From assembly GCA_902806095.1 (NCBI GenBank), contig CADCVF010000081.1, positions 62,001 to 126,000 of the forward strand: a DNA stretch of 64,000 nucleotides, read 5' to 3'. The notes beneath the pieces were generated by a model. The model had not been told where the DNA came from, made no database searches, and saw only the letters and a list, made by a program, of their open reading frames with translations. This document shows, piece after piece, positions 9,240 to 63,014 of this stretch. Source of the DNA: an uncultured Rubrobacteraceae bacterium (GTDB taxonomy: Bacteria; Actinomycetota; Rubrobacteria; Rubrobacterales; Rubrobacteraceae). The first letter of the stretch is position 1; each line of letters opens with the position of its first letter. Made by a program: the position numbers and the translations under genes.

Positions 9240-10064
9240 TTGAGCGGCGCGATAGAACGGGCCTTTGTCTTCCCTGGTCAGGGCACCGTCGGGGCGGAGA
9301 TCACCGGCGCCGCCCGCGACGCGGTGCTCGACTACGTCGGCGACACGGCCGTGCCTTACCAGCTCTCGGTATTCGCCGGCTCTGTCGACCTTCTCTACCG
9401 CTTGCGGGAGGCCGGGATAGAGCCCGACGTGGTGGCAGGACACTCACTCGGAGAATACGCTGCGGCCCACGCGACGGGGGGCCTCGGTCTCGCTGACGGC
9501 GTCAGGCTCGTGGCCGAGAGGGATCGCCTGATGAACGAGGCGTCGAGGGCGAATCCCGGGGGGATGGTGGCTTTGATCGGCGCCGACCCCAGCGAGGTCG
9601 CCACGGCTACCGAGGAGGCCAGTGGCATCGTCGTCGCGGCGAACTTCAATACCCCGCGCCAGACCGTCGTCTCCGGGCAGCTGGATGCGCTCGAGAGAGT
9701 TACCGGGCGCGTGCGAGGGCGGAAGGTGCCGCTCGAGGTATCCGGGGCCTTCCATTCGCCGCTCATGGAAGGGGCAGCGCTGGAGATGGACGAGCTTCTC
9801 CGAGGAGTAGAGTTGGAAGAACCGGAGATACCGATGGTTGGGGCGACGGATGGGGCGTTGTTGACGACGGCGGAAGGGATGCGCGAGGCATTGCGGAAGC
9901 AGATGCTCTCCCCCGTGCGGTGGGTGGCCGTAGTAGAGCGACTGCTGGATCTGGGGGTGCGTGAGTTCTTCGAGGCGGGGGAGGACGGGACTCTGACAAG
10001 GATGCTGCGCGAGTTCAAGAGAAAAGACGTTGAGGGGCGGACGGCCAGGGAGGCGCTCTCGTGA
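9240..10064 (+). CDS. fabD: Malonyl-CoA:ACP transacylase, compact form
   Basis: A 274-residue FabD with VFPGQG at the N-terminus, the nucleophile elbow [25 protein letters not shown] and the GAFHSPLM His motif. It loads malonate onto ACP. The nucleophile Ser is residue 69, whereas in E. coli FabD it is Ser92, so the helical segment between the GQG loop and the elbow is about 20 residues shorter. TTG 9240 directly follows the fabH stop and no upstream start would restore the missing part. The 3' third is strongly G-rich. Confidence 0.93.
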
Positions 10065-10510
10065 GGGCGCCGCTCGGGCCGGCGCAGATCCGGGACCTCA
10101 TCCCTCACCGCTATCCCTTCCTACTGGTCGACAGGATCGAGGAGCTCGAGGCCGGGGTGCGGGCCGTAGGCATAAAGAACGTTACCCAGAACGAGCCATT
10201 CTTCCAGGGTCACTTCCCTGACTACCCGGTCATGCCGGGTGTCCTCATTATCGAGGCCATGGCCCAGGTGGGCGCCGTCGGCGTCATGGCCGGTGGGGAG
10301 CACGCGGACAAGCTCGCGCTCTTCGCGGGGATAGACGGCGTCAGGTTTCGCAGGCAGGTCATTCCCGGCGACGTGCTCAGGATGGAGGTCGAGATAAGCC
10401 GCCTCAAAGGCAGAGTCGGAAGGGGCAAGGGGAGGGCTACGGTCGGGGAGGAACGGGTCTGTGAGGCCGACCTCATGTTCGCCTTCGCCGAGAGGGGTGA
10501 AGTCGAATGA
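10061..10510 (+). CDS. fabZ: 3-hydroxyacyl-ACP dehydratase FabZ
   Basis: A 149-residue hot-dog fold dehydratase. [11 protein letters not shown], and then [23 protein letters not shown] with the catalytic His and Glu, are plain. It removes water from 3-hydroxyacyl-ACP during elongation. The GTG start overlaps fabD by 4 bases and the end overlaps fabG by 4 bases, so it is locked into the operon. Having fabZ between fabD and fabG gives a complete elongation cluster except for enoyl reductase, which is not in the window. Confidence 0.96.
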
Positions 10511-11253
10511 TCCGGGACGGACGCGTCGCCGTCGTAACGGGCGGCGGAAGGGGAATAGGCCGCGCCGTGGCCGTGCGACTCGCGAACGAAGGCGCGAGCG
10601 TGGCGATATCTTATCGCTCCAACGACACGACGGCGGAGGAGGTGGCGGAGGAAGTAAGGGCGGTGGGGGCGATGTGCGAGATGTTCAAGGGTGACGTCGC
10701 CTCTCCCGAAGATGTCGCTGCGCTGTTCGAGGGCGTGGGCGAAGCCCTGGGGCAGGTCGAGATACTCGTCAACAACGCCGGCCTGACCAGGGACAACCTG
10801 ATGATGCGGATGAAGGAAGAAGAGTTCGATGAGGTATTGAGGACCAACCTCAAGGGCACCTACCTGTGCACGAGGGCCGCATTGAGGCCGATGATACGGG
10901 CGCGTTGGGGACGGATCGTCAACGTTTCCTCCGTCGTCGGGCTCGTCGGGAATGCGGGGCAGGCCAACTACGCCGCTTCCAAGGCCGGGATCATCGGCTT
11001 CACCAAGAGCGTGGCGCGGGAGGTGGCGCAGCGTGGCATTACTGCCAACGTGGTCGCCCCAGGGTACGTCGAGACCGAGCTGACCCGTAGCCTGCCCGAT
11101 GAGATCAAGGACCGGATCAGGGGCCAGGTACCGGCGGGCAGGTTCGCGGACGCGGAAGAGGTGGCTGAGGTCGTTTCGTTCCTGGCCGGCGAAGACGCCG
11201 GATACGTTACGGGACAGACCCTTGCCGTCGACGGCGGCATGACTATGCAGTAA
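10507..11253 (+). CDS. fabG: 3-oxoacyl-ACP reductase FabG
   Basis: A 248-residue short-chain dehydrogenase. The NADPH motif [10 protein letters not shown] is at residues about 13-22, NNAG near 89, catalytic Ser in VNVSSVVG, and Tyr/Lys in NYAASKAG. The C-terminal [16 protein letters not shown] is typical of FabG. The ATG overlaps the fabZ stop. Operon position supports the fatty-acid role over other SDR roles. Confidence 0.96.
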
Positions 11254-15326: not shown

Positions 15327-15827
15327 TTGGTCGGACGCGAGGATCCGCCCGAGCCAGGCATGCGCGACCGTCCCTACGCGCCGGGCTACGGTATACCGTC
15401 GGACCACCGCGGGATGCTCCTCTGGGGCAACGTGGAGGAGCGCTTGTCCTCAGCCCGCAACTACTGGGTTGCGACGGTGCGTGCCGACGGCCGACCTCAT
15501 GCAACACCGGTTTGGGGACTTTGGGTGGGTGGAGCGTTCTACTTCGGCGCTGGGCCTGGCACGCGCAAGGCGCGCAACCTCGCAGCAAACCCCAACGTCG
15601 TGGTACATCTGGAAGGCGGCAAAGAAGTGGCGATCGTGGAGGGCGCGGCCGAGGTTGTCGCCAATCCCGGTCCCGATCTCGTCGAAAGGCTCTTCGTCGC
15701 TTCCACCGCCGAGTACGGGACGGGTTCCAGCGATGTCGAAGGTTCCTACGTCGTGCGCCCGCGCGTGGTGTTCGCGTGGTCGGAAGGTGGCCCTCGTACG
15801 TTCACGCGATGGGCGTTCGACTGCTAG
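15327..15827 (+). CDS. Pyridoxamine 5'-phosphate oxidase-family flavoprotein
   Basis: A 166-residue split-barrel protein of the PPOX family. The core reads NYWVATVRADGRPHATPVWGLW, FYFGAGPGTRKARNLAANP and VVVHLEGGKEVAIVEGAAE, the usual FMN/F420-binding arrangement. TTG 15327 follows a strong GGAAGGAGG. Members range from pyridoxamine oxidase-like enzymes to F420-dependent reductases and haem-binding proteins; the exact cofactor cannot be assigned. It stands between the broken RlmJ-like gene and smc. Confidence 0.85.
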   Translation: MVGREDPPEPGMRDRPYAPGYGIPSDHRGMLLWGNVEERLSSARNYWVATVRADGRPHATPVWGLWVGGAFYFGAGPGTRKARNLAANPNVVVHLEGGKEVAIVEGAAEVVANPGPDLVERLFVASTAEYGTGSSDVEGSYVVRPRVVFAWSEGGPRTFTRWAFDC

Positions 15828-15997
15828 CAACCCACTTCTCACCGTCAGATCCGCGGACGAGTTCCGCTGCACCGTAAGGCCGGGAGATCCCTGACCTCGC
15901 GTCGAGGTTTGCCGCGTGTGCAGGCCCTAGCTGATAGCTCATTTCCTGCACTTTTCGACGTGCTTTCCTGGCAGAAGTTGCGTAAAATGTTCCATTA
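15828..15997 (+). promoter_or_regulatory. Gap before smc with a -10-like element
   Basis: 170 bases without a gene. TAAAAT at 15983-15988 resembles a -10 box and would start transcription only a few bases before the smc GTG at 15998. There is no Shine-Dalgarno before that GTG. A leaderless smc message is therefore possible. I see no convincing -35. Confidence 0.35.
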
Positions 15998-18900
15998 GTG
16001 CTTTCGGCGATCTATATCAAGGGTTTCAAGACCTTCGCCAGGCCCGTCAGGATGCCGCTCGAAGGGGGCATAACTTCGATCGTCGGGCCCAACGGTTCGG
16101 GGAAGAGCAACATCACCGACGCTGTGCTCTTCGCGATCGGAGAGCAGAGCCCTGGCGTATTGCGCGCCGGGGCTATGAGCGAGTTGATCTTCGCCGGCTC
16201 GGAGACGCTCTCGGGTGCGAGCGCCGCCGAGGTCACCCTCGTACTAGATAATGAAGTGGGCTGGATCTCGCTCCCTTACAAAGAAGTTTCGATCACGCGC
16301 CGCATCTCGCGCGGTGGCGAGACGGAGTATAGGATCAACGGCTCCCGCGCTCGGCTGGCGGACATACGGGCTGTTGCTGGTGAGGCCGGGCTGGGACGCC
16401 ACAGCATCCTCCGCCAGGGCGCTGTAGATTCGATAGTCGCTGGTGGGGCGGCCGCGTGCCGACTGGCGCTTGAAGAGGCTGCCGGACTCGGCGTCTACAG
16501 ACGACGGCGCGTCGCGGCCAGCCGCCGTCTGGAGAGGGCTGATGCCCAACTCGAGCAGAGTCGCCAGCTAGAGGCTGAGCTCGAGGGCCAGTTGCGCAGG
16601 ATAGAGAGGGAGGCAACCGCCGCCCGCGCCTACCGCGAGATCGAATCCCGCTTTCGGGAGCTCTCGCTGGCACACCTTTATCGGGTCGCAACCAGGGGGC
16701 TCGACGGGCTCAGGGAGAAGCTCGCCGAGGCCAGAACGCATGCTGCGGAGCTGGCCGCGACCGAGCGGGACGTTCGTGAGGAAGAAGCAGGGATCGAAAT
16801 CCGCCTGCAACAACTCGAGGAGGATCTCCGGAAGACCGAACGGCAACTGGAGGCCCTCGAGGACGGGGCCGAGGACCTGCGGGTCGAGGCACTGCGTTCG
16901 GATAGGACCCTCTTGCGGCTGGAGGCGGGCCGCGGACGCGAGGGTGAGATGAGGCTCGCCGTCTCCCGCCTGGAAGAGGAGTTACGCCGGGTGTTGCGAA
17001 CTCTGGATGGCCTCGAGGAAGAAGCCAGAGACCTCGAAGCCGCGAGCCTCAGGAAGCGAGAAGAATCAGACCGGCTACAAAAGGTCGTCACGATGTCCCG
17101 CGAGGAGAGCGCCACCGCCGAGCAGGAGAGGGATAGGCTGGCCGGGGAGTTGGATGGGCTGCGCAAGCGCCTCGCCGGGCTCGGGTCCCATGGAGAGCAT
17201 CCTGTGATCTCCGAGGAGGGACTCGCGCGCCTCGAGGTCGTGATCTCGAACCTCGAAGAGGCAAGAGATCAGGGGATGACGGAGAATCTCAGCGAAGCAC
17301 GCGAGCAGGTGAGTGGCATGCTCGCGCGGGTAGATGAGCTCGCCGAGGAAGTCAGCCGCAGGCGCGGGGTTCTATCTGCTGCGATCGGGCGGGCAGAATC
17401 CAGGATACGTGCGCTGAGGGAGACGGCTCCCGAGGGCGCGAGCACGCGGCTCTACGAAGTGATCCGGGCCCGCCCCGGCTACGAGGTCGCGGTCGAGGCG
17501 GCCCTTGGAGAGTATGGCGCCGGGGTGCTTGCCGAAAACCTGGACGAGGGGATGAAGCTTCTTTCGAGCGTCGAGCCTGTTGCCGTCCGCCTCGACGCGA
17601 GGGCCATGGAGTCCAACGGGGCCCTACCTGGAAAACCCCTGATCGAATGCATAGAGGTTCTCGACGCGCGCTACGACGATGCGCTCCGACGTCTCCTGAC
17701 CGGCATCTTCGTCGTCGAGCGCCCCGACGACGGGGCGAACGCCAACGGCTACGTGGCCGTAACGAGGGACGGCTTTCGCCTCACGAGGACCGGCGTGAGC
17801 CTGCGTCCGGGCCCAGGCAACTTCGCGCGCGAGACACAGCTCGCCAACTGGAGAGAGTGCCTCGAAGCTCTGAAAGACGGGCCTGGCGGCGTCCTATACG
17901 ACGCGAGAGAGACCGTCGCTGGTGTCTCGGATCGCCTGAAAAACCTGGCCGCGGCCGTACATGGGATCAGTGTTATTGCCGAGCGCACGGAGCGCGCTCG
18001 GGCACTGATCTCACGCGAAGCCAGACGCCGGAGGACTTCAGGGGAGAATTCCAGGAGGGCTTTTCTGGAGCGGGAGAGGGCTCTCTACGTCCTCTCCCGC
18101 GAGGCTGCCTCGACGGAGGGTGCTCTCGTCGAAGCCGGAAAACGCGCCGACCGCGCGAAGGAGGAGCTCCTCGCCGCTACTGCCGCCGCCGAGGGGGCCG
18201 GCGCGGCTGCGGCCGACTCGGACCGGAGGTTGTCGGAGGTGCGCGCCACCCTCGCAGCGGGCACGAGTCGCAGGGAGGCGATCTCACGCAGGCTGGAGCG
18301 GTCCGCGGGCTCTCTTGCGGCCGCAGCAGGTAACCCTGAAGCCCTCGCAGCCAGGGCTGCGAGGGCTTCTACACAGCTCGTCACTGCCGTTCGCTCGCGC
18401 AGAAACGGCTTGCGGCGCCTCAGAGGAGAGGCAGCCGAGGCTCACCGCAGGGTCTCCGCTGAGCGCACGACCCTCTCCCGCAGGACCGTGGATCTCGCAG
18501 GCAGACTCGCCACCGCCCGCGCGAACGCCGAACGCCTCGCCGAAGAGGTGGACAGGGCCGAAAGCGCGGCGGCCGAGGCCGGGGAGGAGATACAGGCAGA
18601 GTGGGGCGCCACCCTGGATGCGGCCCGCCAGGAGGCCGAGAAGCACGATGAGAGCACAGACGGAGAACGACACACCCTCGCGCGCAGGCTCAAGCGCTTC
18701 GGGGACGTAAACCTTCTAGCCCTCTCTCAGGAAGAAGGACTGCGCGAACGCCACGAATTCGTCTCGGTCCAGAGGGCCGACGCAGAGGACGCAGCCAACG
18801 AATTAAACCGCATAATACGGTCGGTGGACGGGGAGATAGAGTCGCGCTTCGCTGAGACCTTCGGGCGGGTCAGGGATGCGTTCGGGGAGATGGTGCCGCG

Positions 18901-23929: not shown

Positions 23930-24556
23930 TTGTCAGGGCTTCTCCCGGGCGGTCTTCCGCCGGAGGAATGTTCTCTCTACGCTTTCGACGCGGCGTGGGT
24001 CCTGTGCCGCAGCGGGCCGCTCGCGGGGGCCGATGAGGCCGGCCGTGGCGCGTTGGCGGGACCGCTTGTGGCTGCGGCCGTCGTCCTCGGCGAGGCTGAG
24101 ATCTCCGGCATCAACGACTCCAAACTGCTAAGGCCCGCTCTGCGGGAGAAGATCTTCGGCGCGCTACTCCGCCGGGCCGAGGCCGTCTCCGTAGTGGCCT
24201 ACCCGGCCTGGTGGATCGACCGTCACGGCGTCGGCCTGGCGAACCGCGAAGCCCTGAGCAGGGCTCTCGCCTCCCTGAAGGCTCGCGCCGGGTGCGGCCT
24301 CGCGGACGGGAACCTGGATCTCGGCCCCGAGGTGGAGTGTCTGCCCAGGGCCGACGCCAGGAGCGCTGCGGTCGCCGCTGCGAGTGTCGTGGCCAAGGTC
24401 GTCCGCGACGACGCGATGCGCGCCCTCTCCGAGACCCACGCCGGCTACGGCTTCGGGCACAATCGTGGGTACGGAACGTCCGAGCACCGGCTCGCCCTCT
24501 CTGAACTAGGCCCTTGCCGGGTCCACCGACTCAGCTACGCCGGGGTGGGAGACTGA
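23930..24556 (+). CDS. rnhB: Ribonuclease HII
   Basis: A 208-residue RNase HII that removes misincorporated ribonucleotides from DNA. The catalytic GADEAGRGALAGPLVAAAVVL is near residue 33, INDSKLLRPALRE follows, and later acidic residues lie in the PRADARSAAVAAASVVAKVVRD block. TTG 23930 is the start; about 30 extra residues precede the catalytic motif. The next gene overlaps its 3' end. Confidence 0.94.
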   Translation: MSGLLPGGLPPEECSLYAFDAAWVLCRSGPLAGADEAGRGALAGPLVAAAVVLGEAEISGINDSKLLRPALREKIFGALLRRAEAVSVVAYPAWWIDRHGVGLANREALSRALASLKARAGCGLADGNLDLGPEVECLPRADARSAAVAAASVVAKVVRDDAMRALSETHAGYGFGHNRGYGTSEHRLALSELGPCRVHRLSYAGVGD

Positions 24557-24903
24557 AGGACAAATCTCCTGGAGCATGGGGTGAGGACCTCGCGCTGCGC
24601 TACCTGATCCAAAACGGGTACACACTCATCGAGCGCAACTACAGAATACGGCGCGGGGAGATCGACCTGATAATGCGCAAGGATGAGGCCCTTGTCTTTG
24701 TCGAAGTGAAGTTGCGGCGCGGAACCGGCTATGGAGACCCGCTCGAGGCCGTCACCCCCCGCAAGCAAGACACCCTGCGCTTCGTAGCCGAACATTACAT
24801 CTACGCCAGAGAACCACACTTCGATACGCTGCGGTTCGATGTGATCGGCATCCTCGCCGACCGACCCGACGTCAGGGTGCATCACGTCGAGGACGCATTC
24901 TGA
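24514..24903 (+). CDS. yraN: YraN family (UPF0102) nuclease-like protein
   Basis: Up to 129 residues. The family core is clear: GAWGEDLALRYLIQNGYTLIERNYR, RRGEIDLIMRKDEALVFVEVKLR and DTLRFDVIGI. The GEIDLI/FVEVK pattern is the PD-(D/E)xK nuclease fold; the family is tied to DNA processing and often sits by rnhB and comM. The only canonical in-frame start is TTG 24514, which forces a 43-base overlap with rnhB. A CTG at 24553 overlaps the rnhB stop (CTGA) and would give 116 residues beginning LKDKSPGAWGE, which matches family lengths better. Confidence 0.9.
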   Translation: MPGPPTQLRRGGRLKDKSPGAWGEDLALRYLIQNGYTLIERNYRIRRGEIDLIMRKDEALVFVEVKLRRGTGYGDPLEAVTPRKQDTLRFVAEHYIYAREPHFDTLRFDVIGILADRPDVRVHHVEDAF

Positions 24904-32622: not shown

Positions 32623-33426
32623 TTGGACGAGTCCACCAGACTTACGGGTGAGATCGAAGGGGCCGGGCTCTCTGAGCTCGGCCCCGTAAAGCGCGTCGTG
32701 TTGAAGCTCTCGGGGGAGAGCCTCGCTGGCGACGGCGGCTACGGGATCAACCCTGGTAGCCTCGATTCGACGGCGCAGGGTGTGCTCGAAGCGGTCGAGG
32801 CTGGGGCCGAGGTGGCCGTTGTCGTCGGCGGCGGCAATATCTTCCGGGGCTCGCAGGTCGCCGACGAGCTCGGCATAGAGGGCGCGACCGCTGACTACAT
32901 GTCCATGCTCGGGACGGTCATCAACGCGATGGCGCTGCAGGCGGCCCTGGAAGGGCGCGGCGTCGAGACGCGGGTTCAGACGGCCATCGAGATCCAGGAG
33001 GTCGCCGAGCCCTACATCCGTCGAAGGGCCATACGCCACCTGGAGAAGGGCAGGGTCGTCATCTTCGGCGGCGGGACAGGCAACCCCTTCTTTACGACCG
33101 ACACGGGCGGTGCTTTGAGGGCACTGGAGATCGGGGCCGACGCCCTCCTGATGGCGAAGAACCGGGTCGACGGCGTCTACGACAAGGACCCACTGAGGTA
33201 CCCCGACGCGGTGCGCCTGCCGCGGCTCAACTACATGGACCTGCTCTCCAACAACCTCTCTGTCATGGACCACACTGCGGCCACGCTTTGTAGCGGCGAG
33301 AACTTGCCCATAGTCGTTTTCGATATACTCAAGGAAGGCAACCTGCGCCGCATCCTGCAGGGGGAAGAGGTGGGGTCGCTGGTGTGGGGAACGGCGAACG
33401 GAGGCGGAGGAGGCTCACATGTCTGA
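32623..33426 (+). CDS. pyrH: UMP kinase
   Basis: A 267-residue amino-acid-kinase-fold UMP kinase. [20 protein letters not shown] is at about 23-42, [11 protein letters not shown] near 67, [15 protein letters not shown] near 89, [17 protein letters not shown] near 152 and DGVYDKDP near 185. TTG 32623, 8 bases after tsf, is the start, which gives a 20-residue lead before the kinase fold. It overlaps frr by 8 bases at the end. Confidence 0.95.
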
Positions 33427-33979
33427 CGTTATAGATCTCACGGCGGCCGAGCGCAGGATGGGCGGGGCCGTCGAGTCGGTGAAGAGCAATTTCGCCACCA
33501 TACGCACGGGCAGGGCGAACCCCTCGCTTCTGGACAGGATCGAGGTCGATCTCTACGGGACGAGGATGTCCTTGAGGAGCGTCGCGAACATCGGCGCGCC
33601 CGAGGCGCGGCTACTGACCGTGACCCCCTTCGACCCGAACTCCTTGAAAGACATCGAGCGTGCCATAAGGGATGCAGATATCGGCCTCAACCCGCAGAAC
33701 GATGGCAAGATACTAAGGCTACCGATACCCGAGTTGACGGAGGAGCGCCGTAGGGACCTTGTCAGGATGGCGAGGAGCATGGCCGAGGAGGGCAAGGTCT
33801 CTGTCAGGAACGTGCGCCGCGACGAGATGAGGGACCTGCACGAGTTGCGCAAGGAAGGTGAGATCTCGCAGGACGACGAGCACAGGGCCGAGGACGAGCT
33901 ACAGAAGCTCACCGACGGCTACGTCAAGAGGGTCGATGCTGCCCTCTCCGACAAGGAAGCCGAGCTCTCGGAGGTCTGA
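33419..33979 (+). CDS. frr: Ribosome recycling factor
   Basis: A 186-residue RRF that splits post-termination ribosomes with [65 protein letters not shown] and [14 protein letters not shown] are typical. ATG 33419 lies inside the end of pyrH behind GGCGGAGGAGG. Its own end carries the GGAGG that serves uppS. Confidence 0.98.
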
Positions 33980-33982
33980 CTG

Positions 33983-34729
33983 CTGGAACCCGCCGAGATA
34001 CGACTCCCCACAGACTCTCCCGAGCAGCGTGTCCTCGACCCACAGCGGACCCCGCGTCACGTCGCCATCATCATGGACGGCAACGGACGCTGGGCGAGGA
34101 GGCGCTGGCTCCCTCGCGCCGCCGGCCACCGGGCCGGTGTCTCTGTGCTCACGCCCCTGCTCGAGACGGCGGGCCGCGCCGGGGTGAAGACGCTCACCCT
34201 CTATGCCTTCTCGACGGAGAACTGGACGCGTCCCGAGAGTGAGGTAAAGACGCTCATGAAGCTCTTTCTGGATACGGCCCGCGAGAAGGTGCCCGAGTTG
34301 AATGAGCGTGGGGCGAGGCTTCATTTCCTGGGAAGACGGGGACACCTGCCGGCAACGGTGCTCGAAGCCCTGGAGGAGGCTGAGGATCTCACCTCGGGCA
34401 ACGACACCCTCGACGTTTACATCGCGCTCGACTACGGAGGACGCGCGGAGATCGTAGACGCCACCCGCCGGATAGTCGCAGACGGTCTCTCTCCCGAGGA
34501 CATCGACGAGGTCACCTTCGCCCGCTACCTCTACGCCCCCGACGTACCCGAAGTCGACCTGGTGATCCGGACTAGCGGCGAGCTTCGCGTCTCGAACTTC
34601 TTGCTCTGGCAGATAGCCTACGCCGAGTTCTACGTGACGGAGACGCTGTGGCCCGACTTCTCCCCCCAGGAGTTCTTGCGCGCCCTCGAGTCTTTCGGGT
34701 CCCGGTCCAGACGCCGGGGCGGCGTCTAG
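33983..34729 (+). CDS. uppS: Undecaprenyl diphosphate synthase, probable CTG start
   Basis: A cis-prenyltransferase that makes the lipid carrier for peptidoglycan. TPRHVAIIMDGNGRWARRR with the catalytic Asp, YAFSTENWTRP, and RTSGELRVSNFLLWQIAYAE are all present. The first ATG in frame (34073) sits inside the essential MDGNGRWA motif, so the true start lies upstream. No ATG, GTG or TTG occurs in frame there. CTG 33983 (or 33980) follows GGAGG by 8 bases and just clears the frr stop, giving 248 residues, a normal length. Confidence 0.9.
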   Translation: MEPAEIRLPTDSPEQRVLDPQRTPRHVAIIMDGNGRWARRRWLPRAAGHRAGVSVLTPLLETAGRAGVKTLTLYAFSTENWTRPESEVKTLMKLFLDTAREKVPELNERGARLHFLGRRGHLPATVLEALEEAEDLTSGNDTLDVYIALDYGGRAEIVDATRRIVADGLSPEDIDEVTFARYLYAPDVPEVDLVIRTSGELRVSNFLLWQIAYAEFYVTETLWPDFSPQEFLRALESFGSRSRRRGGV

Positions 34730-44720: not shown

Positions 44721-45660
44721 TACGCTTGCTGAGATTGCGGAGTTCTTGAAGACTCTGGACAGGGTCGCCGTCACGACGCACGTAGGGGCAGACGGTGACG
44801 CCATCGGCGCCTCGGTCGCGCTCGTGCGCCTGGTGCGCCGCCTTGGGGCTGAGGCCGTGTTCTGCCACGCGGAAGCCGTGCCAGACTATCTGGCGTGGCT
44901 CCTGCCCGGCGAGGCCCTGCGCGAGCTTGCGCCGGATCATGACCTCCTCGTCGCCGATACATCTCGCGCAGACCGAACCGGCGTACCTGTACCCGAAACT
45001 GGGGCCCGCCTCAACGTCGACCACCACGAGGACAATCCTCTCTATGCCGAGTACAACCTGGTGAGCCCGAGGGCGGCTGCGACGGCCGAGATCATCGCCG
45101 ACCTCTACGCCGAGCTCGACGTACCGCTCGACAGGCCCGCCGCCGAGGCCCTCTACGTCGGCATAAGGACCGACACGGGCGGCTTCAACTTCCGCAACAT
45201 CTCCCCCCGCGCCCACGAGTTGGTCGCCGACCTCCTTAGGGCGGGCGTCGTGCCTGCCGAGGTCAACGAGCGCATCAACCGCAGGGGCAGCATCGAGCAG
45301 CTAAGGATCGTCGGCGTCTCGCTCGCGAACGCCGTGCGTTACGGTGACGCCCTGATCTCTACCGTCGAGAACGCAGACTACGAGCGGACCGGCGCAACGG
45401 AACTCGATTCGAAGGAGTCTATAGACCAGCTCCGCACCGTCGCGGGTGTCGACGTCGTGGCCCACCTGCGCGAAGTGCCGCAAGGCACTAAAGGTTCCCT
45501 CCGTTCTGAGACGGTCGATGTCGGAGAGATAGCGCGCCGCTTTGGGGGAGGCGGCCACAGGCTCGCCGCCGGATACACCACGCGGCGCCGGCCGAACGAG
45601 GCCAGGGAAGAGCTTCTCGGGATGCTGGAAGGCGTCCTCGACCTCGGGGGCGGGCGATAA
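44698..45660 (+). CDS. nrnA: DHH-family nanoRNase/pAp phosphatase NrnA
   Basis: A 320-residue DHH/DHHA1 phosphoesterase that degrades 2-5-mer RNAs and dephosphorylates pAp. Seen: VAVTTHVGADGDAIGAS, LLVADTS, the NVDHHEDN motif that names the family, GIRTDTGGFNFRN and the terminal GGGGHRLAAGYT of DHHA1. pAp is the by-product of ACP synthesis from CoA, a loose link to the fab cluster. ATG 44698 lies inside rbfA. Confidence 0.93.
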   Translation: MKTRTKNNTLAEIAEFLKTLDRVAVTTHVGADGDAIGASVALVRLVRRLGAEAVFCHAEAVPDYLAWLLPGEALRELAPDHDLLVADTSRADRTGVPVPETGARLNVDHHEDNPLYAEYNLVSPRAAATAEIIADLYAELDVPLDRPAAEALYVGIRTDTGGFNFRNISPRAHELVADLLRAGVVPAEVNERINRRGSIEQLRIVGVSLANAVRYGDALISTVENADYERTGATELDSKESIDQLRTVAGVDVVAHLREVPQGTKGSLRSETVDVGEIARRFGGGGHRLAAGYTTRRRPNEAREELLGMLEGVLDLGGGR

Positions 45661-45671
45661 CGAAAGCGGCT

Positions 45672-46538
45672 CTGTGTGGTGGCCTTCTGCTTGACAAACC
45701 GCCAGGCATAACGAGTGCCAGGGCGGTCTCCTGGGTTAAACGTCTTCTCGCAACGAAGACCAGGATCGGTCACACCGGAACCCTCGACCCACTGGCCTCG
45801 GGCCTCCTCGTGCTCCTACTCGGACGCGCAACCCGTCTCTCGCGCTACGTGACCAACCTGGACAAGGCATACACGGCAACCGCCCGTTTCGGCGCCGTCT
45901 CCGACACGCTCGACGCTGAAGGCGAGATCATCGATCTCGACGCCCCTCTGCCTTCTGAAGAGGCCATCCGTGACGCGCTACCCACTTTCACAGGCGATCT
46001 CCTCCAGGTTCCACCGATGACCTCAGCCCTCAAACGCGGGGGCGTCCGCCTCTACGACCTGCACCGCCGCGGCATCAGCGTTCAACGGGAGGCCCGTCCT
46101 GTCACGGTGCATAGTCTCGGTCTCGCCGGACTCGACCCCGCCGAACAGACTGCAACGTTCGAGATCTCATGCAGCAGCGGCACCTACGTAAGAACCCTCA
46201 TAAACGACCTCGCCACGTCCCTGGGCTCAGGCGCCTACCTCACCGCCCTGCGCCGCACGAGCGTCGGACACCTCACCGTCAATGACGCCCCTCCCCCACA
46301 AAATCTCTCCCCCGAAACCTTACATAACCACATAATACAATCACTCAAGGTGGTGGCCCATTTGCCTGAAGTGGAAGTTTCTGCGGAGGTAGGCTGCGGC
46401 CTGGTCTGCCACGGCGGGCGTATAGGGAGGTGTCGAGTCGATGGCAGCTACAGGGTGATGTGCGGGGGCGAGATGTTGGCTGTATACAGGGACGACGAGG
46501 GTGGGGGGCGGGCCGAGGTGGTGTTATGCGCGGAGTAG
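45672..46538 (+). CDS. truB: tRNA pseudouridine55 synthase TruB, probable CTG start
   Basis: TruB makes pseudouridine 55 in tRNA. GGLLLDKPPGITSARAVSWV, the catalytic Asp in RIGHTGTLDPLASGLL, VPPMTSALKRGGVRLYDL and SSGTYVRTLINDLA are present. The first canonical in-frame start (GTG 45810) lies after the catalytic motif, so it cannot be the real one. Upstream the frame is open but has no ATG/GTG/TTG. CTG 45672 aligns with the usual M-x-G start and gives 288 residues; ATA 45657, overlapping the nrnA stop, is a less likely option. The gene is C-rich up to about 46330, then G-rich. Confidence 0.9.
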   Translation: MCGGLLLDKPPGITSARAVSWVKRLLATKTRIGHTGTLDPLASGLLVLLLGRATRLSRYVTNLDKAYTATARFGAVSDTLDAEGEIIDLDAPLPSEEAIRDALPTFTGDLLQVPPMTSALKRGGVRLYDLHRRGISVQREARPVTVHSLGLAGLDPAEQTATFEISCSSGTYVRTLINDLATSLGSGAYLTALRRTSVGHLTVNDAPPPQNLSPETLHNHIIQSLKVVAHLPEVEVSAEVGCGLVCHGGRIGRCRVDGSYRVMCGGEMLAVYRDDEGGGRAEVVLCAE

Positions 46539-51270: not shown

Positions 51271-51328
51271 GCTGAAGTGCTGACAAGCGAAGGCCGCAAG
51301 GCCCGAGCGTGCTGAGATACTGACATGC
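51271..51328 (-). repeat. Dispersed repeat, family A, copy 3 (inverted)
   Basis: The reverse orientation of the unit, 5 bases after copy 2, so the pair can fold into a long hairpin. Closest to the copy at 88-141 (shared TGCTGACAAGCGAAGGCCGC). The ATG at 51325 that would start the RNase J frame is part of this repeat. Confidence 0.75.
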
Positions 51329-51351
51329 TTTCCGACCGAAGGGAGGAAATA

Positions 51352-53013
51352 CTGTTAGACAATCAGACCTTGCAGGTCGTTCCCCTCGGGGGGCTGGGTG
51401 AGATCGGCAAAAACATGACGGCCGTGCGCCAGAGCAGTGGGATAATCCTGGTCGACGCTGGTATGTCGTTTCCTGACGAGGAGATGCCTGGGATCGACCT
51501 TGTCCTCCCTGACTTCACCTACCTGCGGGAACACGCTGGCGAGCTGAAGGGCATAGTGCTCACGCACGGTCACGAGGACCATGTTGGTGCGCTACCTTAT
51601 CTCTTGCGCGAGTTCAACGTGCCTGTCTACGCCACCAAGCTCACCCTCGGGCTCGTGCGCAGCAAGCTGCAGGAGTTTGGGATCAAGAGGGGGGATCTGC
51701 GCGAGATAAAGGCGGGCGGCACACAGAACCTCGGGGGTTTCGGTCTCGAGTTCATCAACGTCAACCACTCCATCCCCGACGCCGTTGCCGTGGCGATCCG
51801 CACCAACGCGGGCCTGATCGTCTTCTCCGGTGATTACAAGGTGGACCTGACGCCGATCGAGGGCGGGCCGATAGATCTTGGGAGATTGGCCGAGCTGGGC
51901 AAGGAGGGGGTTCTCGCCTACTTCGGTGACTCTACCAACTCGGAGAGACCCGGCTACGTGCCCTCCGAGAAGACCGTCGCGACGACTTTCCAGGACGTCT
52001 TCGAGAAGGCGCAGGGCCGGATCATCGTGGCCTCCTTCGCCTCCCACATCCACCGCGTCAGCCAGGTCGTCGAAGCGGCCAAGGCGCACAACCGACTCGT
52101 CGGCGTGGCAGGACGTTCCATGATCCGCAACGTCCAGATCGCGCTGGAGCTAGGCTACCTGGACCTCCCGTCCTCGATGCTCGTCGAGCAGAGGGACATC
52201 AATAAGGTTCCAGACTCAGACATCGCCGTTCTGATGACCGGCTCCCAGGGCGAGCCGCTCGCCGCCTTGAGCCGGGTGGCGAACGGTACCCACCGCACCA
52301 TAGAGGCCGGCCCAGGCGACACGGTCGTGATAGCCGCCCACCCCATCCCAGGCAACGAGCGCGGCGTCTCGCGCACCATCAACAACCTGATGAAGCGTGG
52401 CGCTGAGGTCTACTACAGTCCCCTGCGAAACGTGCACGTCTCGGGTCACGCGGCCCAGGAGGAGCAGAAACTGATACTCGCGCTCCTCAAGCCCAAATTC
52501 CTCGTGCCCGTGCACGGCGAGTTCAGGATGCTCAGGCACCACGCCAACACCGCGATCAGCGTCGGCATCCCCGAAGAGAACATCTTTATCCTGGAGAATG
52601 GCGCCTGCCTGGAGTTCGACAACGGCGAGGCGCGCATGGCCGAGAACGTCGCCGCAGGAATGTTCCTCGTTGACGCCGGTGCCATCGCCGAGAGCTCCGA
52701 CGGTGTAATGCGCGAGCGCCAGCAACTCTCGGAGGACGGCATGTTTATCGTCGTCGCCCGCATCAACGCCCAGAACGGACAGCTCTTGGGACCCCCCGAT
52801 GTGATCTCGCGCGGCTTCGTCGACCAGCAGGCCGCAAACGGCCTGGTCGACGAGTCGATGGCCGTGGTTACGGGTACTCTGGAGCGGACGGCCAGGCGCC
52901 AGGTAACGGACTGGGGCGAGCTCAAGAAGGCAATCCGTAAAGACCTCTCCAGCTTTCTCTCCGAGCGGACAGGTAAACGCCCGATCATCCTGCCGCTAAT
53001 AGTTGAGGTATAG
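51352..53013 (+). CDS. rnj: Ribonuclease J, probable CTG start
   Basis: A metallo-beta-lactamase/beta-CASP RNase. VVPLGGLGEIGKNMTAV, LVDAGMSFPDEEMPGIDLVLPD, the metal motif LTHGHEDHVGALPYLL, FGDSTNSERPGYVPSE, and the C-terminal ALLKPKFLVPVHGEFRML are diagnostic. It has 5' exo- and endonuclease roles in mRNA turnover. ATG 51325 in frame lies inside repeat A with no ribosome site. CTG 51352 stands 5 bases after GGGAGG and gives the natural start LDNQTLQVVPLGG (553 residues). Confidence 0.94.
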   Translation: MLDNQTLQVVPLGGLGEIGKNMTAVRQSSGIILVDAGMSFPDEEMPGIDLVLPDFTYLREHAGELKGIVLTHGHEDHVGALPYLLREFNVPVYATKLTLGLVRSKLQEFGIKRGDLREIKAGGTQNLGGFGLEFINVNHSIPDAVAVAIRTNAGLIVFSGDYKVDLTPIEGGPIDLGRLAELGKEGVLAYFGDSTNSERPGYVPSEKTVATTFQDVFEKAQGRIIVASFASHIHRVSQVVEAAKAHNRLVGVAGRSMIRNVQIALELGYLDLPSSMLVEQRDINKVPDSDIAVLMTGSQGEPLAALSRVANGTHRTIEAGPGDTVVIAAHPIPGNERGVSRTINNLMKRGAEVYYSPLRNVHVSGHAAQEEQKLILALLKPKFLVPVHGEFRMLRHHANTAISVGIPEENIFILENGACLEFDNGEARMAENVAAGMFLVDAGAIAESSDGVMRERQQLSEDGMFIVVARINAQNGQLLGPPDVISRGFVDQQAANGLVDESMAVVTGTLERTARRQVTDWGELKKAIRKDLSSFLSERTGKRPIILPLIVEV

Positions 53014-56293: not shown

Positions 56294-56352
56294 CAGGCGC
56301 AGTAGATGCCGATTACATAATCTGTTGGCACACTCGCTTTTTGGAGGATGCA

Positions 56353-60790: not shown

Positions 60791-62120
60791 CACGACACGA
60801 TCGACGCCGAGAGCGCCCATACAGCTCTCCAGCAAGCCTGCCGGGCGGGCCAGCCCTGAAAGTAGGACCGCCTGCATAAGGACCTTTGGGTGCCAGATGA
60901 ACGTGCACGACTCGGACCGCATAAGGCGGATGATCCAGGACGCAGGTTACGCCGAGGTCCAGCATTACGAGGATGCTGACCTCGTAATACTCAACACCTG
61001 CTACGTCCGCGAGAACGCCGTCGACCGCGTGAAGGGACACCTCGGAGAACTAAACCGTCTCCGCCGCGAGGGCCGGGTCAAGAAGGTGGCCCTAACAGGC
61101 TGTATCGGCGCCGCCGAAGAGTCGGCCACCCTCAAGCAGACCTACAATATAGACCTCGTACTGGGCACGCATAATACTTACGAGTTGGCTGAGTTCGTAG
61201 GGCTACCGACGATGCGGGAGACGTACACTCCCGAGTTGCCTGGCACGGAGGGCGGGCACAACGCCTTTGTGACGATAATGACCGGGTGCAACTACCAGTG
61301 CAGTTACTGCATAGTACCGACTGTGAGGGGGCGTATGCTCTGCCGTCCGATGGGGAGTGTGATCGGGGAGGTAGAGAGGCTCGTCGCTGGCGGTACCGGG
61401 TACGTGACGTTGCTGGGCCAGACGGTGGACGCTTGGCGACACGAGGGCAAGAGGTTTTGTGATCTCCTGGAGGCAGTCTCGGAGAGCGCGCCGCGGGTGT
61501 GGTTTACCACGAGCCACCCTTCCAACATGGAGGATCGCACGTTACGGGCCATAGGGGAGAGGGATACCATTGTGAAGCGGCTCCACCTGCCCGTGCAGTC
61601 GGGGTCCGACAGGATGCTCAAGGTCATGCACCGCGGGTACAAAGCGGAGCGGTACAGGCGCAAGATCGAAGTTTTCAGGGAAGCGGCGCCGGACGGTACC
61701 CTCAGCACGGACATTATCGTGGGCCATCCCGGCGAGACCGAGGAGGACCACGAACAGACACTCGAGCTCGTCGAGGACTGCGCCTTCGACGCGGCTTACA
61801 TCTTCAAGTTCTCACCCAGACGGGGCACCGAGGCCGCGGCGCTACCCGGTGCCGTGCCCGATGCCGTCGTCCAGCGGCGCTTCCTCGAGGTGCTGAGACA
61901 GATCGAACAGAACGCCTTCGCGAGGAACCAGCGCAAAGTCGGTGGCGTAGAGGAGATCTACATCCGTCACGGTAGCACGGAAGACGGAAAGGCTATCGGG
62001 GAGACCTGGAGTGGTCACGCCGTTCACGTCAAGACCGACGTCGCACCGGGCAACTACGTCAAAGCCAGAATCGAGGGCGCAGGACCCCACGTACTGTACG
62101 CCGGCGAGCCATCAGGGTGA
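60783..62120 (+). CDS. miaB: tRNA-2-methylthio-N6-dimethylallyladenosine synthase MiaB
   Basis: A 445-residue radical SAM methylthiotransferase. The N-terminal cluster Cys lie in RTFGCQMNVHDSDRI, ILNTCYVRENA and ALTGCIGAAEE; the radical SAM motif is GCNYQCSYCIVPTVRGR; a TRAM domain closes the protein (GETWSGHAVHVKTDV). It adds the 2-methylthio group to the i6A37 made by MiaA, which is encoded next. ATG 60783 is inside the previous gene's end. Confidence 0.96.
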   Translation: MSSTTRSTPRAPIQLSSKPAGRASPESRTACIRTFGCQMNVHDSDRIRRMIQDAGYAEVQHYEDADLVILNTCYVRENAVDRVKGHLGELNRLRREGRVKKVALTGCIGAAEESATLKQTYNIDLVLGTHNTYELAEFVGLPTMRETYTPELPGTEGGHNAFVTIMTGCNYQCSYCIVPTVRGRMLCRPMGSVIGEVERLVAGGTGYVTLLGQTVDAWRHEGKRFCDLLEAVSESAPRVWFTTSHPSNMEDRTLRAIGERDTIVKRLHLPVQSGSDRMLKVMHRGYKAERYRRKIEVFREAAPDGTLSTDIIVGHPGETEEDHEQTLELVEDCAFDAAYIFKFSPRRGTEAAALPGAVPDAVVQRRFLEVLRQIEQNAFARNQRKVGGVEEIYIRHGSTEDGKAIGETWSGHAVHVKTDVAPGNYVKARIEGAGPHVLYAGEPSG

Positions 62121-62144
62121 CGACCCTGGCCTGAGGTAAGACTT

Positions 62145-63014
62145 CTGACACAGGACTCGAACAAGGCCGCACTCGTAGTTTGTGGGCCGACGGCGGGCGG
62201 CAAGAGCGAACTCTCCGATGACGTGGCCGAGAGGCTCACCGAGGCTGAGGGTCGCCACGTACCCACGCTGGCCGTCGATTCCATGCAAGTCTACAGGGAG
62301 CTGCCTGTGATCACCAACCAGGCCAGAAGGAGGCCGGCGGAGCTAGTCGGCATCGTATCTGTAACCGAGGAATGGACAGTCGCCAGGCACAGGGCGCGTG
62401 CCGAGGAGATCATCGCACCAGAAGCTACTTTCGTCCTCGACGCGGGAACGGGGATGTACCTGAATGCGATCCTGCTAGATATCCCTCTCGCGCCAAAGGT
62501 CTCTTCCCTGTTGCGCCGGCAGGCGCAGGAGGCTGCTGCGAACGAATCCAACCCTCGCAGGGCTGCGCGGACGAAAGAGCTGGAACTGGCCGGGGCCGGG
62601 GGCCGGGGTTCTATCTGGGAGGGAGAACTTCTCTACGACACTACCATCGTCTACCTCCGCCCAGAGAGGCATGCGGTCGACGCCGCCATCGGCGAGAGGT
62701 CCAAGAGAATAACCCTGGACGGCGTGCGCGAAGCCGAGAGACTCAAAGCCATGGTCGCGGCGGGGAAGAGTGTAAGCCCCCAGGTCATGGACTCCGTAGG
62801 GGTGCGCGAGCTCTCCGGGCACCTCGCAGGGACGCTCTCTCTGCCGCAGGCACAGGACCTCATTTCGACCCGTACCAGACGGCTCGCCCGACGCCAGATG
62901 CGCTGGTTCGACAAGCTGGTGCGTACACTCGAAGGCCGCGCCAGGATTACCGTCTTGCATTGCCCGTATCACGAGAGAAATTTGCATAATATGCATGATA
63001 TAATTGGTATATGA
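62145..63014 (+). CDS. miaA: tRNA dimethylallyltransferase MiaA, probable CTG start
   Basis: MiaA isopentenylates A37 of tRNAs that read U-starting codons. Walker A CGPTAGGKSELSDDV, then LAVDSMQVYRELPVITNQ and the late RTRRLARRQMRWFDKL are diagnostic. The first canonical in-frame start (GTG 62223) lies after the Walker A loop and cannot be real. Between the in-frame miaB TGA (62118) and the loop there is no ATG/GTG/TTG. CTG 62145 follows GAGGTAAG by about 6 bases and gives 289 residues. The 3' end is AT-rich and holds the hflX -10. Confidence 0.92.
   Translation: MTQDSNKAALVVCGPTAGGKSELSDDVAERLTEAEGRHVPTLAVDSMQVYRELPVITNQARRRPAELVGIVSVTEEWTVARHRARAEEIIAPEATFVLDAGTGMYLNAILLDIPLAPKVSSLLRRQAQEAAANESNPRRAARTKELELAGAGGRGSIWEGELLYDTTIVYLRPERHAVDAAIGERSKRITLDGVREAERLKAMVAAGKSVSPQVMDSVGVRELSGHLAGTLSLPQAQDLISTRTRRLARRQMRWFDKLVRTLEGRARITVLHCPYHERNLHNMHDIIGI
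62983..63004 (+). promoter_or_regulatory. Palindrome and -10 element before hflX
   Basis: TGCATA-A-TATGCA is a perfect 13-base inverted repeat (62983-62995), followed by a perfect TATAAT at 62999-63004. The predicted transcript start coincides with the hflX ATG at 63011, so hflX may be leaderless, with the palindrome a candidate operator. No clear -35 is present. Confidence 0.5.

Follow-up and report, generated by a model that had tools for sequence, protein, structure and literature searches.

The window, a stretch of 64,000 nucleotides from the genome of a soil Rubrobacteraceae bacterium, contains yraN, frr, uppS, truB, rnj and miaA. The following features bear on where translation of these genes would begin.

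24553..24903, + strand: yraN (UPF0102); CTG 24553 is a possible start and TTG 24514 the canonical alternative
33419..33979, + strand: frr (ribosome recycling factor); its stop lies 3 nt upstream of the uppS CTG
33970..33975, + strand: Shine-Dalgarno sequence GGAGGT of uppS, within the final frr codons; energy -13.2, spacing 8 to CTG 33983
33983..34729, + strand: uppS (undecaprenyl diphosphate synthase; PF01255/TIGR00055); candidate start CTG 33983
45657..46538, + strand: truB; candidate start ATA 45657, its ATAA overlapping the stop of the upstream gene; Shine-Dalgarno energy -10.2, spacing 6
51341..51346, + strand: Shine-Dalgarno sequence GGGAGG of rnj; energy -14.5, spacing 5 to CTG 51352
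51352..53013, + strand: rnj (RNase J); candidate start CTG 51352
62133..62140, + strand: Shine-Dalgarno sequence GAGGTAAG of miaA, with GAGGT at 62133-62137; anti-SD energy -9.9 kcal, spacing 8
62145..63014, + strand: miaA (tRNA dimethylallyltransferase; TIGR00174, PF01715); candidate start CTG 62145

Shine-Dalgarno (SD) energies refer to pairing with the 3′ end of the 16S rRNA, whose anti-SD core in the Rubrobacteria is reported as CCUCCUUU (PMC10783764).

CTG as the candidate start of miaA and uppS

In the profile search the match of miaA to TIGR00174 begins at ORF residue 18, and PF01715 is matched as well. After the in-frame TGA at 62118-62120 the codons read CGA CCC TGG CCT GAG GTA AGA CTT CTG (62145), followed by LTQDSNKAALVVCGPTAGGKS, and it is 39 nt from this CTG to the start of the P-loop, GPTAGGKS. 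The earliest canonical codon of the frame, GTG 62223, lies downstream of the P-loop. The original prediction, that miaA has no ATG, GTG or TTG between TGA 62118 and the P-loop and has an SD at normal distance from the CTG, was confirmed, and a start at CTG 62145 is well supported by the sequence.

The miaA comparison covered 23 other family genomes, one of which lacks the 5′ end of the gene, and conservation of the CTG as a start is partial. A CTG shortly before the P-loop region, where no canonical codon is usable, occurs in the source genome (G000) and in G007, G008, G010, G013, G017 and G018; the codon is therefore kept in at least seven family genomes, while others have ATG, GTG or TTG close to the same position. 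Neither CTG nor a canonical codon precedes the MiaA core in G004 (L072) and G006 (L069), where the best-placed codon, and our best guess for the start, is an ACG after an AAAGGAG or AGGGAG SD.

The frr ORF (33314-33979), which by its family we take to be ribosome recycling factor, has its first canonical codon at residue 36 and its C-terminal sequence at 33938-33979. Its junction with uppS reads ...GGAGGTC TGA CTG CTG GAA CCC..., the TGA at 33977-33979 being the frr stop. Between this stop and the ATG within HVAIIMDGNGRW, the first canonical codon, the uppS frame offers no ATG, GTG or TTG. Here too the predicted arrangement, an SD at normal distance and no canonical codon ahead of indispensable sequence, is present.

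The motif GAGGTCTRR-N2..6-CTG-GAV-CC was counted over 40 family genomes, and is found in 18 of them, representing 8 of 13 genera. With ATG, GTG or TTG in place of the CTG, the same 40 genomes yield eight matches, none at the frr-uppS junction and all at other loci. Nearly all of the family members read have the uppS CTG, followed by GAA, GAC or GAG, one codon past the frr stop or nearby, with the same SD; as a start the CTG is thus conserved among the relatives. In other classes of the phylum ATG, GTG or TTG is mostly available at the uppS start. Within three close pairs, 13 of the 18 substitutions between the CTG and the first ATG fall at third codon positions, a bias which indicates that this stretch is translated. 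A start of uppS at CTG 33983 is accordingly well supported at the sequence level, and the keeping of the CUG across genera suggests that low or regulated initiation may have been selected.

In the source genome uppS and miaA share the frame of the frr and miaB stops, respectively, which would suit a reading of frr-uppS and miaB-miaA as fusions made by stop readthrough or frameshifting. Between relatives, however, the stop varies among TGA, TAA and TAG while the SD-CTG arrangement persists, and the frame relation shifts, with 5 or 2 nt from stop to CTG in G002, G020 and G024. We regard fusion as extremely improbable.

RNase J, truB and yraN

The CTG start proposed for rnj has a strong SD and is conserved; the accompanying claim that a canonical codon is absent fails, since an in-frame ATG lies upstream at 51325. 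The SD of this ATG is only -4.5, versus -14.5 at CTG 51352. ATA 51349, one codon ahead of the CTG, is a third possible start. Relatives for rnj and truB were taken from a single genome-contig scan. In 24 family members, the source genome included, the aligned rnj start column holds CTG in 13 and TTG in 7; the others have CAA (one genome, with an ATG one codon earlier) or ATT, ATA or ACA (three genomes, with a TTG following each). At other near-invariant leucine columns of RNase J the median NTG fraction is 0.42. A strict motif search of the 40 family genomes found CTG in 11, TTG in 5, and ATG or GTG in none. The codon is therefore conserved as a start in the relatives, most of which also have an in-frame stop, part of the SD (GGAGGTAA), 6-9 nt upstream of the CTG or TTG, so that no start is possible upstream there. 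In the nearest relative the start is an ATG aligned to the ATA of the source genome, one codon ahead of the CTG. RNase J likely begins at CTG 51352.

A TTG also stands at codon 7 of RNase J (51370-51372), 18 nt 3′ of the CTG. Of 24 relatives 20 share it, and it is the most conserved NTG among the leucine columns of the protein. No SD was found near it in the source genome (-3.5). This codon is possibly a secondary start, or reflects selection for low structure.

The truB frame is open for 100 residues without a canonical codon, and to this extent the original prediction stands. The CTG at 45672 that it named as the start was rejected: it has no SD (-2.4), and relatives have CTA, CTC, TCG, CCG or another codon in its place. 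In 13 of 14 relatives an in-frame ATA overlies the upstream stop (ATAA or ATAG, that is ATAR), mostly with an SD, so that at this site it is the ATA, and not the CTG, that is conserved. ATAR needs an upstream gene whose last sense codon ends in A, and only 17% of last sense codons do so genome-wide; because ATAR is nonetheless kept in 13 of 14, ATA 45657 is the best candidate for the truB start. In L269 a strong SD instead precedes a CTG, and in L206 (R. marinus) the codon is ATG. The overlap scan found no genome-wide excess of ATAA or ATAG stop-start overlaps.

In yraN the SD at CTG 24553 is strong (-12.8, spacing 7), versus -5.3 at the in-frame TTG 24514, the presence of which contradicts the supposed lack of a canonical codon. 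In the alignment to TIGR00252, profile position 4 falls on ORF residue 17, the CTG codon itself.

Translation might instead proceed from canonical codons, downstream of the candidate starts or, in RNase J and yraN, upstream of them, giving shorter or longer proteins. The codons available for this are ATG 51325, TTG 24514 and, in RNase J, codon 7, the conserved TTG. Such starts would, however, remove the P-loop from miaA and the first half of strand 1 from uppS. Substitutions upstream of the uppS ATG follow a coding pattern, the alternatives have weak SDs, and in rnj the stop just 5′ of the CTG or TTG in most relatives opposes a longer protein. Initiation at these canonical codons is in our opinion unlikely.

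Sequence or assembly errors could also have removed normal starts from this metagenome-assembled genome, a draft in 85 contigs with a completeness of 98.6% and a contamination of 3.4%. Yet the uppS and rnj CTG codons recur independently in many family genomes, complete ones included; two of the 11 genomes with the strict rnj CTG motif are 100% complete, and one of these two, G016, is a single contig. For these two genes the conservation refutes such errors, which as a general explanation are very improbable.

Near-cognate codons across the genome

The genome-wide analysis covered 2.61 of 3.83 Mb in sixty-nine stretches, from which 2,179 coding ORFs were chosen. In a blind SD test all non-canonical codons were counted in 182 genes with coding signal ahead of the first canonical codon, the estimates of coding onset being noisy. 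Of the 58 non-canonical codons CTG led and ATC came next, with SD-backed positions numbering 18 of 53 for CTG (p=4e-5), 15 of 44 for ATC (p=2e-4) and 4 of 9 for ATT; for the synonymous control CTC the figure was 5 of 68. By within-gene permutation, SD-backed CTG was found in 16 genes without a usable canonical start versus 7.2 expected (p=0.00025), and SD-backed ATC in 13 versus 5.2 expected (0 of 4,000 permutations). CTC was not enriched in this comparison (5 versus 7.0 expected). In genes that have a canonical start CTG was not enriched, and the excess of the other leading codons was likewise absent.

The excess over chance amounts to about nine SD-backed genes each for CTG and ATC among ~2,180 ORFs. 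Canonical starts were estimated over 1,879 genes at ~710 ATG, ~380 GTG and ~207 TTG (roughly 55:29:16). An EM start-codon model assigned CTG to ~22 of the 1,879 genes, a number to be read as an upper bound only, as unrelated codons are similarly noisy. The proposal that CTG is a routine start in this organism is thus too strong, the nine or so genes above chance being dwarfed by the canonical starts. What survives of it is CTG initiation in miaA, in uppS and likely in RNase J, as a heritable trait and not an error. The share of CTG, approximately 0.5-1% of genes, is genuine and heritable, and rare. Since ATA accounts better for truB, and the enrichment of ATC is as great as that of CTG, the trait appears to be a tolerance not of CTG alone but of a number of near-cognate codons.

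Named examples were sought as genes in which a Pfam or NCBIfam profile starts before the first canonical codon, with a CTG just upstream. A start at the first canonical codon would truncate the conserved domain in mraZ, yhaM and aat, in two ABC transporter genes (an exporter and a permease) and in a cupredoxin gene, all of which have an SD-backed CTG. The SD at the CTG of ruvX is weak. In ftsQ, glmM and ispD there is no usable canonical start, and ATC or ATA codons compete beside the CTG.

The N-terminus of a response regulator (L163:3182-3910, + strand) fits an ATC start, TCGGAGGGCACC ATC CGC ATC CTG ATA GCA GAC GAC. On L095 the pair at 9740-10999 and 15646-17478 (+ strand) comprises a DAO-type oxidoreductase, with the apparent start GGGAGGCGAGC ATA, and an ABC exporter, with the apparent start AAGAGGAGGACGAAG ATC; neither has a canonical codon before the domain. 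These genes point to near-cognate starts other than CTG. The recA gene starts at TTG (56341-56343 of the window) with no obvious SD, and among relatives the codon here is variously TTG, CTG or GTG. A recA start at this CTG, which four genomes have at the homologous site, was set aside, as a canonical TTG, ATG or GTG follows four codons on in nearly all.

Proposed mechanism, known systems and the initiation apparatus

It is very probable that a small set of genes in the Rubrobacteraceae starts at near-cognate codons with an ordinary CAU initiator tRNA. The set would comprise some 0.5-1% of genes, with CUG in miaA and uppS and probably also in RNase J, AUA in truB and AUC in some others. The near-cognate codon would be set in the P site either by a good SD spaced 5-9 nt away or through coupling to the upstream stop. 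The likely mechanism is conventional, with the 30S subunit bound under the lead of the SD or, where genes are coupled, with a ribosome that has just terminated. The fMet-tRNA would then pair with a mismatch, C1-U36 for CUG and the third base for AUA or AUC, at low efficiency, and fMet would be the first residue of these proteins. The rare codon may hold the protein level low or regulated, and for this reason CUG would not be swapped for AUG, GUG or UUG; UppS synthesis, for instance, could be tied to RRF-dependent reinitiation after frr. That the CUG codons, and the AUA of truB, are actively maintained by purifying selection for regulation, beyond mere tolerance, is possible, and we put it forward with some doubt.

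In E. coli and its relatives infC and pcnB start at the near-cognate codons AUU or AUC, often in connection with discrimination by IF3. As in the present case, a near-cognate start is conserved there in a housekeeping gene; unlike infC and pcnB, the genes of the Rubrobacteraceae are uppS, rnj and miaA (with CUG) and truB (with AUA).

Documented bacterial genes with a CTG start are sparse; they include E. coli ano, plasmid repA and, in Deinococcus deserti, rpsL (Baudet et al. 2010, as cited in PMC5960689). In these the initiator tRNA reads CUG as the first codon of a real protein, as is proposed here. They stand alone and are experimentally supported, whereas in the Rubrobacteraceae several housekeeping genes of many species are involved, known from sequence. 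In a study of start-codon switching in 36 prokaryote groups, suboptimal starts tended to have strong SDs (Belinky et al. 2017; PMC5622118), as do the CTG genes of the Rubrobacteraceae. Switches to CUG were nearly absent from that study (2 of 61,358 from AUG, 1 of 5,080 from GUG and 1 of 2,468 from UUG, by annotated starts; PMC5622118), whereas in the rnj of the Rubrobacteraceae CUG and UUG interchange at 13:7. Mycobacteria, of the same phylum, also select starts under the lead of the SD and accept TTG; they accept ATT as well, but CTG starts are scarce and not enriched (0.03%; PMC4633059), in contrast to the enrichment found here. The literature examined describes no CUG start that a whole family retains in several of its housekeeping genes.

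The stability of a CUG start across many species, with ATG, GTG and TTG one mutation away, contradicts the view of such starts as transient accidents, and alignments of the Rubrobacteraceae offer natural material on whether rare starts serve expression control. Gene callers restricted to ATG, GTG and TTG would shorten or miss such proteins family-wide, MiaA losing its ATP-binding loop.

The original prediction had called for inspection of the initiator tRNA and IF3. No changed anticodon stem-loop was found in the initiator tRNA; at C60:25964-25980 it has the exact standard sequence, TCGGGCTCATAACCCGA. IF3 is 51% identical to that of E. coli. At the residues compared, presumably the ones important for start discrimination, most arginines are kept, with Gly opposite R112 and Phe opposite Y107; as far as can be judged from its sequence, IF3 looks ordinary. 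A lineage-wide relaxation of the apparatus (initiator tRNA, IF3 or 16S), by which CTG would become a generally good start, would agree with the enrichment of ATC, and probably of ATT and ATA, and with the lack of a nearby canonical start in infC. The standard stem-loop, the retention in IF3 of most residues thought important, and a near-cognate usage of only about 1% argue against it, and such relaxation is rather unlikely.

The infC gene, which encodes IF3, lies at approximately 11505 of L092 (G000:C6), minus strand, with no canonical start near the conserved RING... N-terminus. The in-frame codons after AGAGGAGTGG are TGC GCA GTA GCG. IF3 itself may use an odd start, perhaps the GTA, or a far upstream TTG beside a TATAAT box.
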